Under the pieces are notes generated by a model. The model did no database searches and had not been told where the DNA came from. It worked only from the letters and a program-made list of their open reading frames with translations. DNA of 24,072 bases from positions 1 to 24,072 of IMG/VR virus record IMGVR_UViG_3300046734_000005; one strand, 5' to 3'. Both the position numbers and the translations under genes were made by a program. Each line of letters begins with the position of its first letter. Positions within the stretch are counted from its first letter, which is position 1. The stretch is from a virus. Below, one piece after another: positions 2,948-24,072 of the stretch.

Positions 2948-4177
2948 ATGGCAACATTAAAAGAACTAAGAGCAGAAAAAGCTCAAAAGTCAGAAGATTT
3001 AGCTAAGATATTTGACTCTGTAAAAGATATGTCTGAACTTTCCTCAGATCAAAAAGAGGAAATCAAGAGAAGAAATCAAGAGTTAGCAGAACTTGGAGAT
3101 TCAATTACTGAACTACAAGATCTAGAGGGAATGAAATCCCAAAACTCTGATATGATGGAAGCTTCTAAAAAAGTTTCTGGAATGCCTGTTTATGGAGAAC
3201 CAGAAGTAGAAGAAGCAAAATCTCTTGGGGCACAATTTATAGATTCAGATGCTTATAAATCTTTTGTTGATCATGGTATTAAGAATGTTCCTTTTGAAGC
3301 AAAAACTGATGTAACAACCTCAGTTTGGACTAGAGATACAGTCTATCAGCAAGTTATTCCTGCTATAGAGCCTAATCCTAATCCTGCTTTGGACTTGGTA
3401 GATTCTATCAATACAGATCAAACAACATATTACTTCTTGCAAGAATCAGCAACCAACAATGCAGCAGAAACTGCAGAAGCTGGTGCTGCTCCAGAAGATG
3501 CTTTCAGCTACACAGCTGTAACAGCTCCTGTTAGAAAATTCATTACAACTTTGCCTATCACAGCAGAGTTGCTTGAAGATCAAGCAGGTGCAAGAGCATA
3601 TTTTGATGGCAGACTTGCAAATCATGTAATGCAAAGATTAGAAAAACAATTCCTAATTGGTGGTGGAGTAGCTCCAGATGTTAAAGGACTTACTCAACAA
3701 GCAGGAATCAACACAATCACTTACACAGCAGGGGCATTCCCTGACACTGCAGGTGGCAAGTTAAGAACAATTCTTGATGGTATCAAAGATGTAGAAATCA
3801 ATGGAGAATTAGCTCCAGATGCTGTTTTGATGAGTCCTGCTGCTTACAATGCTTTAGTAAGTCAGGTTGATGGAAACAATAACTTCATGTTAGGTGCTTC
3901 TGCTTTGGCAGGATCTCCAACTATTTGGGGTTTACCTGTTGTTAAATCATCACAAATTGGTGGTGCTGTATCTACAACTATTGATGTAGTTGTTGGTAAA
4001 TTTGGTGGCTCTTTAGCAGTTAACCATGTATTTAGAAGAGGAATGGAATTACAGATTTCAGACTCAGCTAAAGATGGTGACTTTGGTAAAGATATACTTA
4101 CAGTCAAAGCTTCCCTAAGGTATGCTCTAGCTGTGTATAAACCACAAGCATTCACAAGAATTAATGATATTGAATAA
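2948..4177 (+). CDS. Major capsid protein (HK97 gp5-like)
   Basis: The protein has 409 residues, the normal size for an HK97-fold capsid precursor. Residues 1 to about 100 are charged and predicted coiled coil (KELRAEKAQKSEDLAKIFD onward). This is the delta/scaffold domain removed by the protease encoded just upstream. The rest has the hallmarks of the fold: an N-arm/E-loop region, the RKFITTLPITAELLEDQAG helix region, a Gly-rich insertion segment with IGGG, and the DAVLMSPAAYNAL and SPTIWGLPVVKS strands near the end of the P/A domain. The ribosome site AAGGAG at 2933-2938 sets the start. A long hairpin follows the gene at 4201-4245. Confidence 0.95.
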   Translation: MATLKELRAEKAQKSEDLAKIFDSVKDMSELSSDQKEEIKRRNQELAELGDSITELQDLEGMKSQNSDMMEASKKVSGMPVYGEPEVEEAKSLGAQFIDSDAYKSFVDHGIKNVPFEAKTDVTTSVWTRDTVYQQVIPAIEPNPNPALDLVDSINTDQTTYYFLQESATNNAAETAEAGAAPEDAFSYTAVTAPVRKFITTLPITAELLEDQAGARAYFDGRLANHVMQRLEKQFLIGGGVAPDVKGLTQQAGINTITYTAGAFPDTAGGKLRTILDGIKDVEINGELAPDAVLMSPAAYNALVSQVDGNNNFMLGASALAGSPTIWGLPVVKSSQIGGAVSTTIDVVVGKFGGSLAVNHVFRRGMELQISDSAKDGDFGKDILTVKASLRYALAVYKPQAFTRINDIE

Positions 4178-6320: not shown

Positions 6321-7031
6321 ATGCCAACATTTAATCATGGTAAAAATGCTGTTGTACTATTAGATAATACAAATCTATCTACAACTTTAACTGATGCAAG
6401 TGTATCTTTAACAGCAGATGTAGCTGAAACTTCAACATTCACAGCAAGTTCTAAAACTTATGTTTCAGGATTAAAAGATGGAACTGCAACTCTTTCAGGT
6501 TATTTTGAGAGTTCAAGTCCAGATGCAGATGCAGAGTTTTTATCACAACTAGGAAGCTCAGGTAGTGCTTTTACTATTGCTCCTATTGGACATACAAGAG
6601 GCAATCCTACAGAGTTTGGTAATGTCATTGAAACTTCTTATGATAGATCAGCAGACATTGGCTCAGTTGTTGCAGTAGCTGTAGCATTCCAATTTGATGG
6701 AGATGCTTATAATGGTAAAAGCTTATTAGCTCCAACAGCTATAACAAGTTCATCTAATGAAGTAGGAGTAGATTATGGTGCTGCAGGTACTAATGGTGGT
6801 GCAGGAGTGCTACATTGTACTGTAAGTAGTGGATCTCCAACATTAGATGTTAAAATACAAACAAGTGCTGATAATGTAACTTTTTCTGATTATATAACTT
6901 TTACTCAGGCAACAGGTACAACATCAGAATTAATAACAAGTGATACTAATCCTGCAAGATATGCAAGAGCTGTTCTAACTTTTGGTGGATCAGGTAGCAT
7001 AACAGCAGCAGTTAGTTTTGCACAGAAATAA
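6321..7031 (+). CDS. Major tail protein paralogue 1 with C-terminal extension
   Basis: The protein has 236 residues. The first ~130 align by eye with the next gene: MPTFNHGKNA, a TADVAE element, SSKTYVSGLKDGTATLSG, then PIGHTRGNP and TSYDRSADIG. These are tail-tube type sequences. The C-terminal ~100 residues form an additional domain (from about SLLAPTAITSSSN to the end), rich in Gly/Ser/Thr with a strand pattern like the surface-exposed Ig-like or carbohydrate-binding decorations of phage tails. The next gene lacks it. It may be a second tube subunit, a decorated minor form, or the main tube protein. Confidence 0.8.
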   Translation: MPTFNHGKNAVVLLDNTNLSTTLTDASVSLTADVAETSTFTASSKTYVSGLKDGTATLSGYFESSSPDADAEFLSQLGSSGSAFTIAPIGHTRGNPTEFGNVIETSYDRSADIGSVVAVAVAFQFDGDAYNGKSLLAPTAITSSSNEVGVDYGAAGTNGGAGVLHCTVSSGSPTLDVKIQTSADNVTFSDYITFTQATGTTSELITSDTNPARYARAVLTFGGSGSITAAVSFAQK

Positions 7032-7050: not shown

Positions 7051-7458
7051 ATGCCAACATTTACACATGGAAAGAATGCAGCATTCAAGATTGATGATTC
7101 TGGTGGAACTTTAAGAGATATCTCTGATGTTCTTACTGATGTTTCTATTTCAAGAACTGCTGATGTAGCTGAGGTTTCAGCATTTAGTAATAGTTCTAAA
7201 GCTTTTGTAGCAGGACTTAAAGATGCAACTTTAACAATCTCAGGCTCTTTTGATGCAACTGTTGATGGTTACTTATCTGGAATACTTGGAGCAGAGGGAT
7301 CTTTTGAGTTCTATCCAATTGGAACTACAGGAGGAAATCCTAAAGCATCAGGAGAAGCAATAATGACTTCTTATGATAGAACACCTGATATTGGTGGAGC
7401 TGTTACTTTTACAGCTGCTTTTCAAGTTTCTGGAGATGTAACTGAGGGAACTGCTTAA
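7051..7458 (+). CDS. Major tail protein paralogue 2 (core form)
   Basis: The 135-residue protein starts at ATG 7051 after GAGGAGA at 7036-7042. It shares its start (MPTFTHGKNA), the TADVAE element, the SSKAFVAGLKDATLTISG segment and the PIGTTGGNP and TSYDRTPDIGG motifs with the upstream gene, but ends after the tube domain. It would form the helical tail tube around the tape measure. Conserved 5' DNA between the two genes suggests tandem duplication. The next gene is the tail chaperone, which normally follows the major tail protein. Confidence 0.82.
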   Translation: MPTFTHGKNAAFKIDDSGGTLRDISDVLTDVSISRTADVAEVSAFSNSSKAFVAGLKDATLTISGSFDATVDGYLSGILGAEGSFEFYPIGTTGGNPKASGEAIMTSYDRTPDIGGAVTFTAAFQVSGDVTEGTA

Positions 7459-7496: not shown

Positions 7497-7847
7497 ATGA
7501 AGAGGCTTAAACTAGATGATATTTCTAATGCTCCTGCACTTCCTACCAAAGAAATAGAGATTTCTGAATGGGATGCAACAGTTATTGTTACAGGCTTAAC
7601 TAAAGCAGATGCAGTAAAAATAAATCAACTATCAGAAGTTGATGGAGTTAGAGATGAAGTCCTTTTTGAAAAACACTTATTGCTAACAGGATTGAAAGAT
7701 CCTGAGTTTGATTCATTAGAACAAGTAGAAGAATTTTATTCTAAAGCAACACCAAATATAGTAGATAAAATCCTAATGGGGATTTATAGGTGCATGGCTT
7801 GGACTAAGGAGGATCAAGCTACTATAGCTGATCAGTTTCCAGAATAA
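7497..7847 (+). CDS. Tail assembly chaperone, G-like short form
   Basis: The protein has 116 residues; the start follows AGAGG at 7485-7489. It is acidic and helical with a beta start (EIEISEWDATVIVTGLTKADAV), followed by the helical segment SLEQVEEFYSKATPNIVDKILMGIYR. This is the expected content of the G-type chaperone upstream of the tape measure, which holds the tape measure soluble during tail assembly. The 3' end runs into a second frame open from 7828 to 8025, so a longer G-T product is likely (next entry). Confidence 0.82.
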   Translation: MKRLKLDDISNAPALPTKEIEISEWDATVIVTGLTKADAVKINQLSEVDGVRDEVLFEKHLLLTGLKDPEFDSLEQVEEFYSKATPNIVDKILMGIYRCMAWTKEDQATIADQFPE

Positions 7848-8025
7848 TACAGAACTAGCTTTTGAATTTAGATTAGCTTTAGATTTAGGAATGACTGTTG
7901 ATACTCTTAGAAAAAGTATGAGTGTTGAGGAATTTGAGTCTTGGAAGTTATACTACATAGATAAGAATAAAAAAGAGCAGAAAGCTATTACAGAGGCTAA
8001 AGCTCAATCTAAATTGAGGAGATAA
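7828..8025 (+). CDS. Tail assembly chaperone T-like extension, made by probable +1 frameshift
   Basis: This frame is open after a TAG at 7825-7827 and ends at TAA 8023-8025. From base 7840 it encodes QNNTELAFEFRLALDLG, then MTVDTLRKSMSVEEFESW and KLYYIDKNKKEQ, the typical T-domain pattern (EF..W..Y) of tail chaperones. It lies +1 relative to the G frame. The overlap contains CAG TTT CCA GAA TAA (7833-7847). A +1 slip of the Phe tRNA from TTT to TTC at 7836-7839 would give a fusion of about 175 residues. The first ATG in this frame is only at 7891 and has no clear ribosome site, so separate initiation is less likely. A -2 slip would also connect the frames. Confidence 0.75.
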   Translation: MISFQNNTELAFEFRLALDLGMTVDTLRKSMSVEEFESWKLYYIDKNKKEQKAITEAKAQSKLRR

Positions 8026-8027
8026 GA

Positions 8028-10019
8028 ATGGCAAGAGCCACTTTAGAGATGTTTTTAAAGCTTACAGGAGCTAACAAAACTTCACAGGGTTTAGAGAAAG
8101 TTTCTAAATCAACTAAAGAATTAGATAAAGATGTAGATAATGCTTCTAAAGCTAATGCACAATTTGCTGCAGGTATGTCTGGACTTTCTAAAACAGCTAT
8201 TGCAGGTGCAGCAGCTTTTGCAGCTAAACAACTTGTTGACTTTGCAATCTCTTCAATTCAAGCTGCATCAGCAGCACAAGAAGCTGCAGGGGCTTTTGGT
8301 ACTACTTTTGGGGGAGCTGCAGAAAAACTAAGTTTAGAACTTGAAAAAAATGCCAATATGTTTGGTTTAACAACATCAGAGGCTAAACAATTAGTAGGTG
8401 TATTTGGTGCTGTTGCTCAGGGTTTAGGATTTACACAAAATGAATCAGCAGATCTATCAGCTAGATTATTTTCACTAGCAGGAGATATTGCTTCATTCAA
8501 TAATATAACAGCAGGTGCAACACCTGTTCTACAGGCTTTTAGATCAGCTATTGTTGGAGAAAGAGAAGCACTAAAAACTTATGGTATTTCTGTACAGGAA
8601 GCTGAGGTACAAACTAAAGCATTTTCAATGACTGGTAAAAGAAGTGCTGATGAACTTACTAAACAAGAGAAAGCCTTAGCAACAACTGAATTAATATTTG
8701 AAAGAGCTGCAGTACAGATTGGTAATGCTGAGAGAGAAGCAGGTGGATTTGCTGCTCAGATGTTATTAACTAGATCAGCAACACAAGAGCTAAGAGAGGA
8801 AGTAGGTGCAGAATTATTACCTGCTGCAGGAGAACTTTTAGGAGTATTTAATAACTTTGTTGATAATATATCTCCTGCTGTTGTTTCAGGCTTTGGATTA
8901 ATTAATGATGCTATTGTAGCTACAGTTGATTCAACACAAAAAGGCACAACACAACTTAACAAATATTTTAGAACATTCATACTAGGGCAAAATGCACTCA
9001 GAGGAGATTCTGATGCTTTAGAAACTCTAAACAAAGAGATGCAAAAAGAAACTGAGATACTTAATGAAAACTCTGTGCAAATAATAACAAATACAGGGCT
9101 TTCCTTAGATTTCTTAGATGTAATTAACAAGATGAACAATGCTTATGCACAGGAGTTCACTAACTTACAGAAAACTAGACTTGGTTTACTTACTAATGAA
9201 ACACAGACTAAAAAGCTATCAGACACTATAAGAACTAAACTTAATCCAATATTTGGAGAACAAAATAGCTTAATTATGTCAAATATTAACTTAGAGCTAG
9301 AAAGATCTAAGATAATGGATCTAATTAGTTCAGCTAATGATGATGTAGCTAGAGCAACTAGAAACAGAAATCAAGCAGCTAAAGACTTAGAGAGATTACA
9401 AATAGATGAAAATGTTAGAGATGCAGAAGCAGCAATTAGAAAAAATGAATTAACAACACAAATTGCACTCCTTACACAAGCTAAACTAAATGGCAAAGAT
9501 GTTACAGCAGAACTTGCTTTAGCTGAGGCAGAGTTAGCTGAGGCAGAGTTTGAACTATCTAATGATTCAGATGCACTTAGACTTGCAAGAGAGAGATTAG
9601 ATTTAGCTGAACAAAATTTACAAAAATCAATAGATAATCAAAATAAAGCACAAGAAAAAAGAAAAGATTTACTTTATGAAATTATAGATATAACAGAGGA
9701 TAGTGAAAAAGCAACAGATAAATATACAAGTGCTTTAGAAAGAAACTTAGAGGCTTATAGAAAATTTAGAGCTTTTGAAACAGCTCCAGATTTAGGTTTT
9801 CCACCACCATCAGATGATGATGATAATGGAATGCCTCCCCCAACACCTGAGCCAGAAATTAGTCCTATACCTACTGTTAGTGATAATAGTAATGTGGACA
9901 CAGGTTTAAAAAATGCTGCAACTGATGTAACAGTCAAAGTTGAGCTTTCAGACAATGCAGAGGATTTTTTACAAGTAACACAAGAGAGATTAGCCAAAAA
10001 AGGTTATGCTATTAGATAA
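8028..10019 (+). CDS. Tape measure protein
   Basis: The protein has 663 residues. It is the longest complete gene and directly follows the tail chaperones. The N-terminus is helical (MARATLEMFLKLTGANKTSQG), followed by an Ala-rich hydrophobic stretch around residues 45-75 (KTAIAGAAAFAAKQL). Long coiled-coil segments follow, notably the Ala/Glu/Leu-rich one at about residues 485-550. A Pro/Asp-rich linker near residues 590-620 (FPPPSDDDDNG) precedes a short C-terminal domain. Using the usual rule of about 0.15 nm per residue, the tail would be about 100 nm long. No lysozyme or peptidase motif is apparent. The ribosome site GAGGAGA lies at 8016-8022, and the stop overlaps the next ATG (TAATG). 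Confidence 0.9.
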   Translation: MARATLEMFLKLTGANKTSQGLEKVSKSTKELDKDVDNASKANAQFAAGMSGLSKTAIAGAAAFAAKQLVDFAISSIQAASAAQEAAGAFGTTFGGAAEKLSLELEKNANMFGLTTSEAKQLVGVFGAVAQGLGFTQNESADLSARLFSLAGDIASFNNITAGATPVLQAFRSAIVGEREALKTYGISVQEAEVQTKAFSMTGKRSADELTKQEKALATTELIFERAAVQIGNAEREAGGFAAQMLLTRSATQELREEVGAELLPAAGELLGVFNNFVDNISPAVVSGFGLINDAIVATVDSTQKGTTQLNKYFRTFILGQNALRGDSDALETLNKEMQKETEILNENSVQIITNTGLSLDFLDVINKMNNAYAQEFTNLQKTRLGLLTNETQTKKLSDTIRTKLNPIFGEQNSLIMSNINLELERSKIMDLISSANDDVARATRNRNQAAKDLERLQIDENVRDAEAAIRKNELTTQIALLTQAKLNGKDVTAELALAEAELAEAEFELSNDSDALRLARERLDLAEQNLQKSIDNQNKAQEKRKDLLYEIIDITEDSEKATDKYTSALERNLEAYRKFRAFETAPDLGFPPPSDDDDNGMPPPTPEPEISPIPTVSDNSNVDTGLKNAATDVTVKVELSDNAEDFLQVTQERLAKKGYAIR

Positions 10020-11967: not shown

Positions 11968-12534
11968 ATGCCACTAGGTGCAGGAAGATTTGGACTTCTT
12001 GGAGGAGTTGCAGATTTAGGTAAATTAGAATTAATTGAAACTGTTAATGCAAGTGCAGTATCATCTTTTGATTTCAGTACTTTAGGAACTTATAATGTTC
12101 ATTTTTTAACTTATAATGATTTGTTCAATTCTAATAATGATAAAGGTTTTGGAATTAGATTATATGAAAGTGGAGTGTTAGAAACTGCTAGTGTTTATCA
12201 AATTGCAAGTCAATATTGTGATACTGCAGGACTTTTTTTTGGGAATAGAAGTACAGGGATTGCTCAATGGCAGTTTGCTAATAATACAGCAATAGGAACT
12301 TATGCAAGAAGTAGAGCAAATGGTTATTTTTACTTTTACAATTTAGGAGATAGTTCAAAGTACAGTTTTGCAACAGACCATTCAACAGGACTTAATAATT
12401 CAAATAATGGAGATAGCAGGTTTGGTAGTTGGGTTTTACCACAAGCAACCACAGTTGATGGAATACAAATTTTTGGTTTTGATACAGGAAATATTACAGG
12501 CACATTTAGTCTATATGGAATTGCAGAAAGTTAG
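11968..12534 (+). CDS. Tail-tip/receptor-binding-type protein, paralogue A
   Basis: The 188-residue protein starts after TAGGAG at 11955-11960. It begins with a short Gly-rich linker (LGAGRFGLLGGVADLG), then LELIETVNASAVSSFDFSTLG and TYNVHFLTYNDL, and ends in TTVDGIQIFGFD and TFSLYGIAES. This begin-and-end pattern is shared with the next two genes and is frequent in structural proteins of marine phages. The middle (Tyr/Asn-rich) differs between the copies. It is likely a beta-sandwich at the tail tip that touches the host. The role is inferred from position and pattern. Confidence 0.6.
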   Translation: MPLGAGRFGLLGGVADLGKLELIETVNASAVSSFDFSTLGTYNVHFLTYNDLFNSNNDKGFGIRLYESGVLETASVYQIASQYCDTAGLFFGNRSTGIAQWQFANNTAIGTYARSRANGYFYFYNLGDSSKYSFATDHSTGLNNSNNGDSRFGSWVLPQATTVDGIQIFGFDTGNITGTFSLYGIAES

Positions 12535-12537
12535 ATT

Positions 12538-13041
12538 ATGGCAGTAGGTAATTTAGAATTTATAAAATCTGCTAGTGGAACTTCTGTTAGTTCATTAGAT
12601 GTTACAGATTGTTTTAGTGCTGATTATGATGTGTATCAAGTATTAGTTAGTAATATAGACCAAGCAACAGCACAATATTTTTGGGTTAGATTAATTGATA
12701 GTGGTGGTGTAGATAGCACTTCAAATTATGATGATGCAACTTTAATAATGAAACCAAGTACAACCTTTTCAGAGCAAAGAAATGCAAATCAAAATGCTTT
12801 TAGTAGGTTTTTATATAATAGTACAGGTACAACAGGGGGAAATCTTAACTTGTATGTTTACAATCCTTATGACAGTAGTTCTTATACATTTTTAGGAGTA
12901 CAAGGCATTGGACAAGGTTTATATTGGGGCAGTAAGGGAATTGGAGTACATACAGTTGCTGAACAAATAACAGGGATACATTTTTTAGCAGGGGCAGGTA
13001 ATTTAGATAATATTGATGTATCAGTATATGGAGTTAAATAA
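12538..13041 (+). CDS. Tail-tip/receptor-binding-type protein, paralogue B
   Basis: The protein has 167 residues. It shares the order of elements with its neighbours: LEFIKSASGTSVSSLDVTD, then DYDVYQVLVSN, a variable middle rich in Tyr/Asn/Ser, the GVHTV element, and a final ITGIHFLAGAG...VSVYGVK. It starts three bases after the stop of paralogue A and its stop overlaps the start of paralogue C (TAATG), so the three are co-translated. The exact function is not shown by the sequence. Confidence 0.6.
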   Translation: MAVGNLEFIKSASGTSVSSLDVTDCFSADYDVYQVLVSNIDQATAQYFWVRLIDSGGVDSTSNYDDATLIMKPSTTFSEQRNANQNAFSRFLYNSTGTTGGNLNLYVYNPYDSSSYTFLGVQGIGQGLYWGSKGIGVHTVAEQITGIHFLAGAGNLDNIDVSVYGVK

Positions 13042-13562
13042 TGGCAGGTAGCTTAATAAAAATAGATGAAGAAATAGTTACATCAGCAGTAGCAAGTGTT
13101 TCACTTCTTGGGATTGACAGCACTTATGATGTGTATATGGTTAAGTATAATAATGCTATTCCTAACACAGATAGTTCTGGTTTTAGATTTAGAGTAACTG
13201 TTTCTGGAACTGCTGATACTACTGCTAATTATGATATAGCTAATAAACAACTTGCTTCAGATACAACTTTTGTTAATAACTCTGGTACTAATGCAACAGA
13301 ATTTGGCATAATTAGTTTAGGAACAGCAGGTAATGAAAGTTCCAATGGAGTAATATACCTTTTTAATTTTAATAATGCAAGTGAATATAGTTTTGTAACT
13401 TATGAAACAACAGATAGAAATACTAATGGTGCTTTAAGAGGTTCACAAGGTGGTGGAGTTCATACAGTTACACAGGCTTGTGATGGTTTAGAGTTCTTTT
13501 TTAGTAATAGTAGTACTTTTGCAAGTGGCTCAACATTCACTTTGTATGGTTTAAAGAAGTAA
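13041..13562 (+). CDS. Tail-tip/receptor-binding-type protein, paralogue C
   Basis: The protein has 173 residues. It opens with LIKIDEEIVTSAVASVSLLG and TYDVYMVKYNN, has a variable centre with FRFRVTVSGTADTTANYDIA, then GGGVHTVTQACDGLEFFF and ends TFTLYGLKK. The GVHTV and xLYGx elements match paralogue B and, in part, A. This is the third copy of a tandem array, consistent with duplication and divergence of receptor-contacting proteins. No glycosidase motif is evident. Confidence 0.6.
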   Translation: MAGSLIKIDEEIVTSAVASVSLLGIDSTYDVYMVKYNNAIPNTDSSGFRFRVTVSGTADTTANYDIANKQLASDTTFVNNSGTNATEFGIISLGTAGNESSNGVIYLFNFNNASEYSFVTYETTDRNTNGALRGSQGGGVHTVTQACDGLEFFFSNSSTFASGSTFTLYGLKK

Positions 13563-17778: not shown

Positions 17779-18080
17779 TGTTAGGGCTATTTGGTAGAAA
17801 TAAACCTTTATCAGTTGTTGAAGATATACAGTTAGACAAAGAGCCATCAGAATTTAGAAAGGTGCAATATATTTTGGAACTAGAGGGCTTTATATGCTCT
17901 CTAGATCCAGAATTTAACTCTAATGGCAATCTCAGAAAAGCTGTGAACAGACTAAGGACTCAATATAATGCTTTAATTTATACTGAGATTTGCAACTGTG
18001 ACAACAAGCAATATGCAAAGCTTAAAAAGAATGGCTCTCCTTATATGCACAAAGCATATATTAAGGATTGGGCATTATGA
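17778..18080 (+). CDS. Hypothetical early protein
   Basis: The 100-residue protein has an ATG sharing one base with the upstream TAA. It is charged and mostly helical (LRKAVNRLRTQYNALIYTEI), with four Cys scattered (FICSLD, EICNCDN) and a basic end (YAKLKKNGSPYMHKAYIKDW). A winged-helix shape is possible but not demonstrated. Its stop overlaps the methyltransferase start (ATGA). Function unknown. Confidence 0.6.
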   Translation: MLGLFGRNKPLSVVEDIQLDKEPSEFRKVQYILELEGFICSLDPEFNSNGNLRKAVNRLRTQYNALIYTEICNCDNKQYAKLKKNGSPYMHKAYIKDWAL

Positions 18081-18583
18081 GTGATAAATATAGTTCTACT
18101 GTTTTTGGTCATGCTAAAGGAGGTGCAACTAAAATTCAGTCTGTTGATTGGTGGACACCTCCATCAGTTTTTGAAAAGCTAGATATAGAATTTGATATTG
18201 ATGTAGCTTCTCCTATTGGTGGAGTTGATTGGATTCCTGCTAAGAAATATTACACTAAAGAGGATGATGGATTAAGTAAAGATTGGGAGGGTACAGTCTG
18301 GATGAATCCTCCTTATGGGATAGCTACAGGCTCTTGGCTTGATAAATTTGTAAAACATGGAGATGGAATTGCACTTGTTTTTGCTAGAACAGATACAAGA
18401 TGGTTTCATAACTATGCTTTGAATGCTGATGCTTTGTTGTTTACTAAAGGGAGATTAGCTTTTATTAATCCAGAAAGAAGTGATACTTCTACTCCTGCTG
18501 TAGGCTCTTTATTTGCTGCTTGTGGAGAGAAGTCTGTAAAAGCATTAGAGCAATCAAAGTTAGGATGGTTTGTAAGACTATGA
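18077..18583 (+). CDS. DNA adenine N6-methyltransferase (phage Dam-type)
   Basis: The 168-residue protein starts at ATG 18077, overlapping the upstream stop as ATGA; the in-frame TTG at 18068 is less likely. It carries DWWTPPSVFEKLDIEFDIDV near the N-terminus and WMNPPYG with the NPPY catalytic motif (residues 77-80), followed by LVFARTDTRWFH. These are the signatures of the phage N6-adenine methyltransferase family (Pfam phage Dam type). It would modify adenine in the phage DNA, often at GATC, which is frequent in this window. It is not a cytosine methylase and so cannot itself explain the missing CpG. Confidence 0.88.
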   Translation: MSDKYSSTVFGHAKGGATKIQSVDWWTPPSVFEKLDIEFDIDVASPIGGVDWIPAKKYYTKEDDGLSKDWEGTVWMNPPYGIATGSWLDKFVKHGDGIALVFARTDTRWFHNYALNADALLFTKGRLAFINPERSDTSTPAVGSLFAACGEKSVKALEQSKLGWFVRL

Positions 18584-19327: not shown

Positions 19328-19871
19328 TAAAAACAATAGAAGATTTTTTGTAGAGGATGAATATAATTTATATGATGTTAAAAAGGCTAGACCATTTTGG
19401 CAGGATATATGCACAGTTAATGGATGGGATATTGTTAAAGATGATGAAGATTTTAAGGAGGACTTTGTTTGCCAGATCAATAATGAATTATATTATATGG
19501 AGTTACAGGTTGTTGGTTATTGGCATAATTTTGACTTATCTTATATCTCTAATGTAAGAATTTCAGCAAGTAAAGTTAAATTACTAAGAGAAAAAAAGAA
19601 TGGTGGATTAGTATTTTTAAACTGTGTTCCTAATAGATTTTTTGCTATTCATGTAGATCAAGTGACTGAAAATATGAAAAAAGACTCAGTAAGAGAACAA
19701 TTTTATGAAATACCACTAAGAAGCATTAATGTTAATGAAGTTAATGTATTAGATACAGATTTATGTGATTGCTTAGAAAATCATTTACCAATTATGAAGA
19801 GAAGTGATGGCAGAATGGCTTTTGCACAAAAAGATTACAACATAAGGGGGGCTAATGGAATATGCTGCTGA
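19314..19871 (+). CDS. Hypothetical protein, PD-(D/E)XK-like pattern
   Basis: The 185-residue protein starts at ATG 19314; an in-frame start at 19266 lies within the lysozyme gene and is unlikely. The segment ending EDFVCQINN followed by ELYYMELQVVGYW has the spacing of a nuclease-like strand-turn-strand (D...E-x-Q, where a usual PD-(D/E)XK core has E-x-K), followed by ISASKVKLL and GLVFLNCVPNRFFAI. It could be a nuclease-fold protein, but the Gln in place of Lys weakens this. Its stop lies within a 19-base direct repeat (19853-19871) that recurs at 20698. Confidence 0.55.
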   Translation: MPEVNKNNRRFFVEDEYNLYDVKKARPFWQDICTVNGWDIVKDDEDFKEDFVCQINNELYYMELQVVGYWHNFDLSYISNVRISASKVKLLREKKNGGLVFLNCVPNRFFAIHVDQVTENMKKDSVREQFYEIPLRSINVNEVNVLDTDLCDCLENHLPIMKRSDGRMAFAQKDYNIRGANGICC

Positions 19872-20700
19872 ACTAAAATTAGGATCAGAACAAACTATTG
19901 CTAAAAAGAAAGATTTAAGAGTTTTATCTTTAGGAGCAGGAGTACAAAGCTCAACTTTATTCTATAAAATTCTTAATAATGAAATTAAGCCTGTTGATTG
20001 TGCTATTTTTGCAGATACAGGTAATGAGCCTAAAGATGTTTATAATTATTTAAATCATCTTACAAAATTAGCTAATTTTCCTATTTATATAGTTTCTAAA
20101 GGAAATATTATAAATGATTCTTTAGCTATTGCAGAAAAAGGAACTAATAAAGGTTTTTTAACTATGCCTGTAAAAGGTGTTGATGCTAATGGCAAACAAG
20201 TTATGGGCAGGAGGCAATGCACAAATGATTATAAAATTCAGCCAATCAATAAAAAAATAAGGCAATTATTAGGAGTAAAAAGATTAACAGGAATGGCTGT
20301 TGAAGTTGTTATGGGAATCTCTTTAGATGAAATACAAAGAGCTAAAGAGCCAATAAACAAATGGCAAATTAATTGTTATCCATTAATAGAAAATAAAATT
20401 ACAAGACACCAATGCTTAGAGTATATAAAAAAACATAAATATAAAACACCTCCTAGAAGTGCTTGTATAGTTTGTCCATATCATAGCAATAAAGAGTGGT
20501 TAGAGATGAAAGAGAATAATCCTGATGAATTTAAATTTGCTGTAAATTTTGATCTAAAAATAAGAACTACTAGCTCTAATAATGTTAAAAATTATTTACA
20601 TTCTAGCATGAAGCCATTAGGAGAAATAGATTTTGATAAATACAAAGAAACTCAGTACTCATTATTTGATGATGAGTGTGAGGGAATGTGTGGTGTTTAA
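19855..20700 (+). CDS. PP-loop ATPase / PAPS-reductase-like protein
   Basis: The protein has 281 residues. SLGAGVQSSTL (about residues 25-35) is the PP-loop, FADTGNEPKDVY follows, then RRQCTNDYKIQPI and later PRSACIVCPYHS with a CxxC pair. This combination is typical of phage and bacterial proteins of the adenine-nucleotide alpha hydrolase/PAPS-reductase type. Such proteins activate a substrate with ATP and may move sulfur. Whether this one acts in sulfur assimilation, tRNA or DNA modification is not shown by sequence. The gene is bounded on both sides by the same 19-base sequence including the ATG, suggesting cassette insertion. Confidence 0.82.
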   Translation: MEYAAELKLGSEQTIAKKKDLRVLSLGAGVQSSTLFYKILNNEIKPVDCAIFADTGNEPKDVYNYLNHLTKLANFPIYIVSKGNIINDSLAIAEKGTNKGFLTMPVKGVDANGKQVMGRRQCTNDYKIQPINKKIRQLLGVKRLTGMAVEVVMGISLDEIQRAKEPINKWQINCYPLIENKITRHQCLEYIKKHKYKTPPRSACIVCPYHSNKEWLEMKENNPDEFKFAVNFDLKIRTTSSNNVKNYLHSSMKPLGEIDFDKYKETQYSLFDDECEGMCGV

Positions 20701-23530: not shown

Positions 23531-24072
23531 TTGGGAATAGCAGATAACATTAGAGGCTTTTTTAATAGTCAAGAAGTCAATTCAGAAAAAAAGACATATA
23601 ACAACTTTCCAACATCTCAAGTAGTATTTCCTTTTAATACTGATGCAGGTTTCTTTAGTGGCACTAATCAGATGAGTCCAGAGGGCAACTCAGCAGCATT
23701 AGCCTGTTTAAATGTTCTTGGTACAGCATTTAGTGAGCCACCACTTAAAGTTTATTTAAAGACACAAGAGGGAGAAGAGTATGTAGAGAATCATCCTGCT
23801 CAAATCTTGTTAGACAATCCTAATCCAAATATGACTGCTAATTTAATGAATAACTATATTGTTACTTCTGTTGCTGTTTATGGGGATGCTTTTATCTTAA
23901 AACTTAGGAATGATGCAGGTGCAGTTGTTCAGCTTATTCCTTTATTACCAGAGATGGTTGAGGTTAAAGGTAATGATGAGAAATTAATTACTAAGTATCA
24001 ATATAAACAAAAAGGCAACACCTTAGACATAATGCCAGAGGATATGATACATCTTAGAGAGAGAATAGATCC
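23531..24072 (+). CDS. Portal protein N-terminal part (3' partial, cut by window end)
   Basis: The frame begins at TTG 23531 immediately after the TerL stop and stays open to the last base (180 complete codons). Portal landmarks are visible: SGTNQMSPEGNSAALACLNVLG, the NHPAQILLDNPNPNMTA element, VTSVAVYGDAFILKLR and MPEDMIHLRERID. It is the N-terminal half of the portal whose C-terminal half is at 1-455. The frames do not join directly when the window ends are put together. A TTG start is plausible by position, since no ATG precedes MSPEG. Confidence 0.9.
   Translation, partial: MGIADNIRGFFNSQEVNSEKKTYNNFPTSQVVFPFNTDAGFFSGTNQMSPEGNSAALACLNVLGTAFSEPPLKVYLKTQEGEEYVENHPAQILLDNPNPNMTANLMNNYIVTSVAVYGDAFILKLRNDAGAVVQLIPLLPEMVEVKGNDEKLITKYQYKQKGNTLDIMPEDMIHLRERID

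Follow-up and report, generated by a model that had tools for sequence, protein, structure and literature searches.

A pair of overlapping reading frames in the tail gene region of a marine phage raises the question of how the second frame, which lacks a conserved start codon, comes to be translated. The window analysed here is the 24,072-nucleotide stretch spanning positions 1 to 24,072 of the IMG/VR record IMGVR_UViG_3300046734_000005. Its gene for a tail assembly chaperone, G (7497..7847, plus strand), is an ORF that yields a 116-aa product by standard translation and ends with the stop codon TAA at 7845-7847. The second frame, T, is +1 relative to G; it opens with CTG at 7828, because TAG at 7825-7827 closes it upstream, and stops at 8023-8025. 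Counted from the slip-site TTC, T covers 7837..8025 on the plus strand, as supported by its match to phrog_337 and by its dN/dS ratio. The G/T overlap on this strand (7828..7847) is 20 nt long and contains the 0-frame codons GAT CAG TTT CCA GAA TAA. The first-pass annotation had described the same G stop, a T-like frame open from 7828 and a short overlap, and these coordinates were confirmed.

The G/T pair sits between the gene of a major tail (tube) protein (7051..7458, plus strand; phrog_10528, E 1.9e-33) and a long ORF of 663 aa (8028..10019, plus strand) in the tape measure position, which is named by position because its sole family match, phrog_28918, is of unknown function. The products of 6321-7031 and 7051-7458 both match major tail protein families (phrog_9522 and phrog_10528, respectively) and have the common start MPTF.HGKNA, thus forming a tandem pair of tail tube-like proteins. 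Elsewhere in the window, three adjoining ORFs of 167-188 aa (11968-13562) are alike by eye and are possibly tandem tail or fibre protein paralogues, and a DNA adenine methylase-like ORF with a WMNPPYG motif (18068-18583) and a PAPS-reductase-like ORF (19855-20700) were likewise recognized by eye. The portal gene is split over the record ends (1-2018 and 23531-24072); since there is no exact terminal repeat and the join is out of frame, this probably reflects a permuted record in which a small gap is left.

The family assignments are consistent with this gene order. G alone matches the tail assembly chaperone family phrog_344 weakly (E 0.005), and 21 of 25 G homologues match the same family, with a best E of 1.9e-34. 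G was modelled (mean pLDDT 86.5) from an alignment that omitted one row belonging to an annotated phage record together with a few further rows. In the PDB the model best matches 2ob9, the tail assembly chaperone of HK97 (probability 0.99, E 0.02, TM ~0.5), and the predicted fold is like that of the HK97 protein. T matches the tail protein family phrog_337 (E 3.8e-07), as do all 13 of the T homologues compared. A tblastn search among annotated cultured phages did not find a G homologue. The pair resembles lambda gpG/gpGT and the HK97-type systems in its place between the tail tube and tape measure genes, in its two-product design, in the 2ob9-like fold of G and in the homology of T to the T domains of phages with −1 shifts. 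In contrast to lambda and HK97, in which a −1 shift occurs on an X_XXY_YYZ heptamer, the frames here call for a +1 shift on UUU_C. By analogy with lambda, many copies of G and few of G-T would be made, with G binding the tape measure protein and T recruiting the tail tube subunit.

The arrangement of the frames and the conservation described below suggest that the G-T fusion is very probably the minority product of a programmed +1 ribosomal frameshift, in which the P-site tRNA-Phe would slip from UUU to UUC. The candidate slip site, UUU_C, lies at 7836..7839 on the plus strand and is marked by the conserved TTT in relatives and by UUU plus a pyrimidine in distant +1 loci; TTT 7836-7838 is the single codon of the overlap that is able to re-pair after a +1 step, onto TTC 7837-7839. 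Ribosomes translating G would arrive at CAG UUU CCA, where in a small fraction of cases the P-site peptidyl-tRNA-Phe (anticodon GAA) could leave UUU and re-pair one base forward on UUC, which pairs better than UUU with this anticodon. The remaining ribosomes would stop at UAA and release G alone. A +1 slip after UUU would give the junction ADQFQNN (ADQ-F-QNN), and the fusion peptide across this junction would run through ...ADQFQNNTELAFEFR. We infer that the shift occurs, how efficient it is and which roles G and G-T play.

Comparison with close relatives bears directly on this proposal. An initial scan of genome contigs for relatives found none. The +1 phase occurs in all of the 147 loci (the window among them; 77 distinct sequences) that carry both G and T, no −1 heptamer of the form X_XXY_YYZ is present in the G/T overlap, and T lies in the +1 frame in every close relative. 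TTT occupies the slip codon in 80 of 80 distinct full-length relatives and is followed by C in 79 and by T in one (L042, TTT TCA), where the +1 frame still reads a Phe codon. The 0-frame stop varies: TAA ends G in the window, and L008, L041, L077 and L081 have TGA or TAG, placed one codon further on. When 25 divergent G proteins, a partly selected set of rows, are aligned, no residue other than the start and the slip-site Phe is invariant. Of the codons in the ORFs of the record, 0.38% are in-frame TTT|C, and the chance that one occurs in an overlap of five to six codons is about 2%, conservation left aside. On the other hand, the conservation of TTT inside the clade is weak on its own because TTT is the usual Phe codon of this AT-rich phage (170 TTT, 29 TTC); its force comes from the distant GC-rich lineages considered below. 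The A-site codon, CCA, is also a usual Pro codon of the phage (66 CCA, 79 CCT). These comparisons bear out the earlier proposal of a TTT-to-TTC slip at a site devoid of a −1 heptamer.

The same data speak to two explanations that do not involve the ribosome. Apart from the break itself, nothing was found that favours an indel introduced by sequencing or assembly, or the decay of the gene; the phase is common to 80 distinct sequences from many metagenomes, and both frames are under purifying selection, with dN/dS at about 0.17 in T (read in the +1 frame) and at 0.11 in G. An indel artefact, which the first-pass annotation had named together with a continuous gene in relatives as a possible refutation, is therefore excluded, because all distinct relatives keep the +1 phase, and decay is likewise given practically no credence; no close relative with one continuous gene was found. 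Alternatively, slippage of RNA polymerase on the U run would yield the same protein frame. Such slippage normally needs a longer homopolymer than the three U that are conserved here, and the C after UUU would play no role in it, which makes an origin during transcription very improbable.

A ribosomal +1 slip at UUU_C is further supported by distant lineages. IMG/VR and GTDB genomes were scanned with a nucleotide pattern that describes the T core motif and takes no account of the slip site, and 143 distinct loci among the matches listed were judged to be genuine T domains. Among these listed matches, 127 of the 143 loci are in the −1 phase, 122 of the 127 with an X_XXY_YYZ heptamer (AAAAAAC in 73, GGGAAAC in 30) and none of the 127 with TTTC at the matching place; ten are in the +1 phase, with UUU plus a pyrimidine in all ten; and six have no assignable phase. 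The P-site codon and its neighbours in the ten +1 loci read ACC UUU CGA (L312), GAG UUU CCA (L336), AUG UUU CCU (L338), GCG UUU CAC (L362), ACC UUU CCG (L376), ACG UUU UGA (L404, 2262-2784 in reverse-complement coordinates, where the UGA stop of G occupies the A site), UCC UUU CGU (L427, Carboxydocella), UCC UUU CUG (L465, Thiobacillus), ACC UUU CAC (L482, Dethiobacter) and UCC UUU CGU (L487, Uliginosibacterium). In these loci the FR motif of the T core lies exactly 30 nt downstream of the +1 Phe codon, except in an insert-bearing subgroup, where the two are 60 nt apart. Three more loci were identified by homology rather than by the motif: the distant, GC-rich Mae-JY09 (L219) with CGA UUU CCU, the +1 locus L504 with UCC UUU CGU, and the +1 G-T pair of L294 (2167-2677) with CUU CGA, the sole exception to UUU. 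The +1 loci with UUU range from about 35% to 73% GC, and between 0 and 0.2% of the codons of the GC-rich ones are in-frame TTT|C. UUU plus a pyrimidine is thus a feature that the window has in common with distant lineages.

A second scan, in which TTTC was required, recovered 32 loci, and each of them has its G ORF in the phase expected; because of that requirement it provides no independent evidence for the site. The A-site codons found elsewhere are CCN, CGN, CAN, CTN or UGA, and since the A site of the TTTC-required loci can be any codon starting with C, the signal that these loci have in common is the tetranucleotide rather than a single rare codon. Mae-JY09 is the only +1 case among the annotated records examined, and the homologues from Streptomyces, Psychrobacter, Moraxella and Thermobifida are −1; the bacterial genome samples contained few further +1 loci. 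In a tree of the T core domain, 30 of 31 +1 rows and six −1 rows fall in one supported group, and the tree, which has few columns and low resolution, needs three phase changes. L537 (G at 3185-3604, minus strand) has a long T like that of the −1 group, yet reads CAG UUU CCG and is +1, and therefore looks like an independent switch of direction.

The frame by itself cannot separate a +1 from a −2 shift, which would give a product differing by one residue, and phage Mu is a known case of a −2 tail chaperone (PMC5009743). The surrounding bases make a Mu-like shift very improbable here. A step of two bases back from UUU leads to AGU in the window and, in other lineages, to AAU, GAU, CCU or UGU, and tRNA-Phe pairs with none of these codons; the conserved pyrimidine after UUU matters for a +1 slip and has no role in a −2 slip.

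Upstream of the proposed +1 site, the clade carries two further elements that the first-pass annotation had overlooked, a Shine-Dalgarno (SD)-like sequence and a hairpin. The SD-like UAAGGAGGA (7805..7813, plus strand), a candidate stimulator, shows no synonymous change; within it, UAAGGAGG (7805-7812) is invariant in the clade, shortly upstream of the slip site. The codons ACT AAG GAG GAT (UAAGGAGGAU, 7805-7814) have zero synonymous change over 80 sequences, the lowest of 98 four-codon windows, and AAG, which makes up 24% of Lys codons, is yet fixed among them. A strong invariant sequence of this kind upstream of T could mean that T is a separate gene with its own start served by UAAGGAGG at 7805-7812, making a frameshift unnecessary. 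This reading is very unlikely, however, because the T frame has no ATG, GTG or TTG over 7828-7890 and its first candidate, ATG 7891, lies inside the conserved LGMTV core. No start codon was found at a usable distance from UAAGGAGGA, and the CTG at 7828 is not conserved. Before the T core, 20 of 54 distinct sequences have no start at all, and the other 34 have only a TTG that codes for the Leu of ELA. A separate start would also leave UUU plus a pyrimidine unneeded in every lineage. T, having no conserved start codon, is thus expected only as part of the G-T fusion made by the +1 shift.

The hairpin, also a candidate stimulator (7812..7833, plus strand), lies between the SD-like sequence and UUU and ends 2 nt before the UUU codon. 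It can form in every clade variant although the sequences differ: a double change, G-C to A-U, separates L264 from L043, and the stems of L126 and L531 are of different sequence. Against codon-randomised controls, p is 0.1 for the window alone and 0.002-0.04 for L126, L531, L514 and L521, of which L514 (p 0.002) and L521 (p 0.004) are two other AT-rich lineages with strong hairpins at the same place. The combined p over the lineages tested, several of which show nothing, is 5e-7, which is no true probability because some lineages are related. Fixed-column covariation in the hairpin is modest to weak, and no signal of RNA structure was detected downstream of the slip site. Tentatively, the SD-like UAAGGAGG and the hairpin of this clade may raise the efficiency of the shift. 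The linear spacing from the SD to UUU is 23 nt (G7812 to U7836). The hairpin could loop out this spacer and bring the SD to a distance like that in prfB; alternatively, its refolding behind the ribosome could favour forward movement.

Bacterial prfB (release factor 2) is alike in combining a +1 P-site slip with an upstream SD-like sequence, and CUU_C of L294 resembles its P-site codon; its SD lies about 3 nt upstream, whereas the 23 nt found here would be too far unless the hairpin loops out the spacer. The closest known counterpart of the site itself is influenza PA-X, for which a UUU_C slip has been proven by mass spectrometry and whose authors predicted a wider UUU_C class (PMC3498833); UUU_C has also been proposed for amalgaviruses (PMC5052127). 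The P-site slip from UUU to UUC is the same in PA-X, and precisely UCC UUU CGU is present in the prophages L427, L487 and L504. The present case differs in involving bacterial ribosomes and tail genes, with CCA in the A site and elsewhere any codon starting with C or UGA/UCA; because the gene is unrelated, the likeness is a convergence of the site only. It is possible, albeit rather doubtful, that UUU_C forms a general +1 class of bacterial tailed phages converging on the PA-X site, and that the hairpin of the marine clade loops out the spacer to leave the invariant SD at about 3 nt from UUU, or at up to 8 nt in some relatives, as a split prfB-like stimulator.

Forward shifts in phage tail genes have been described before. 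Tail chaperones with −1, −2 or +1 shifts, including lambda G-T, are on record (PMC5009743). Other +1 cases, according to PMC5009743 and PMC3498833, are the tail chaperone of haloarchaeal HSTV-2 and a tail protein of Listeria PSA/A118/A500 and of SPP1. These share with the present locus a +1 shift in the tail genes of tailed phages, and the Listeria sites differ in that they read CCC_U and belong to the gene of the tail shaft (major tail) protein instead of the chaperone. The first-pass annotation had set a +1 shift against the usual −1: the direction is upheld by 80 close relatives and the distant lineages, and as a novelty the direction alone does not stand, because +1 tail-chaperone shifts were already on record. 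The PRFect SEA-PHAGES training set contains 350 forward sites, mostly in chaperone genes, and no general forward-shift motif is known, as stated in the same paper (PMC10885494). A full-text literature search, with most subscription journals outside its reach, met no report of a UUU_C site in a phage tail gene; +1 shifts in tail chaperones and UUU_C shifts are thus each known, and the absence of their combination in bacterial phages from the partly accessible literature searched is weak evidence.

Judged from sequence comparison, the marine phage appears to make two versions of its tail chaperone by a forward slip at UUU_C. UUU plus a pyrimidine marks all ten +1 tail chaperones of the T-domain family among the matches listed, which provides an annotation rule for G-T fusions that gene finders miss. 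The site class whose wider occurrence had been predicted from the influenza case (PMC3498833) would thereby be extended to bacteria. One homologous gene family appears to use both the −1 and the +1 solution, and the forward slip, which differs from the backward one that is the usual description for this gene, would recur in many distantly related phages and prophages.
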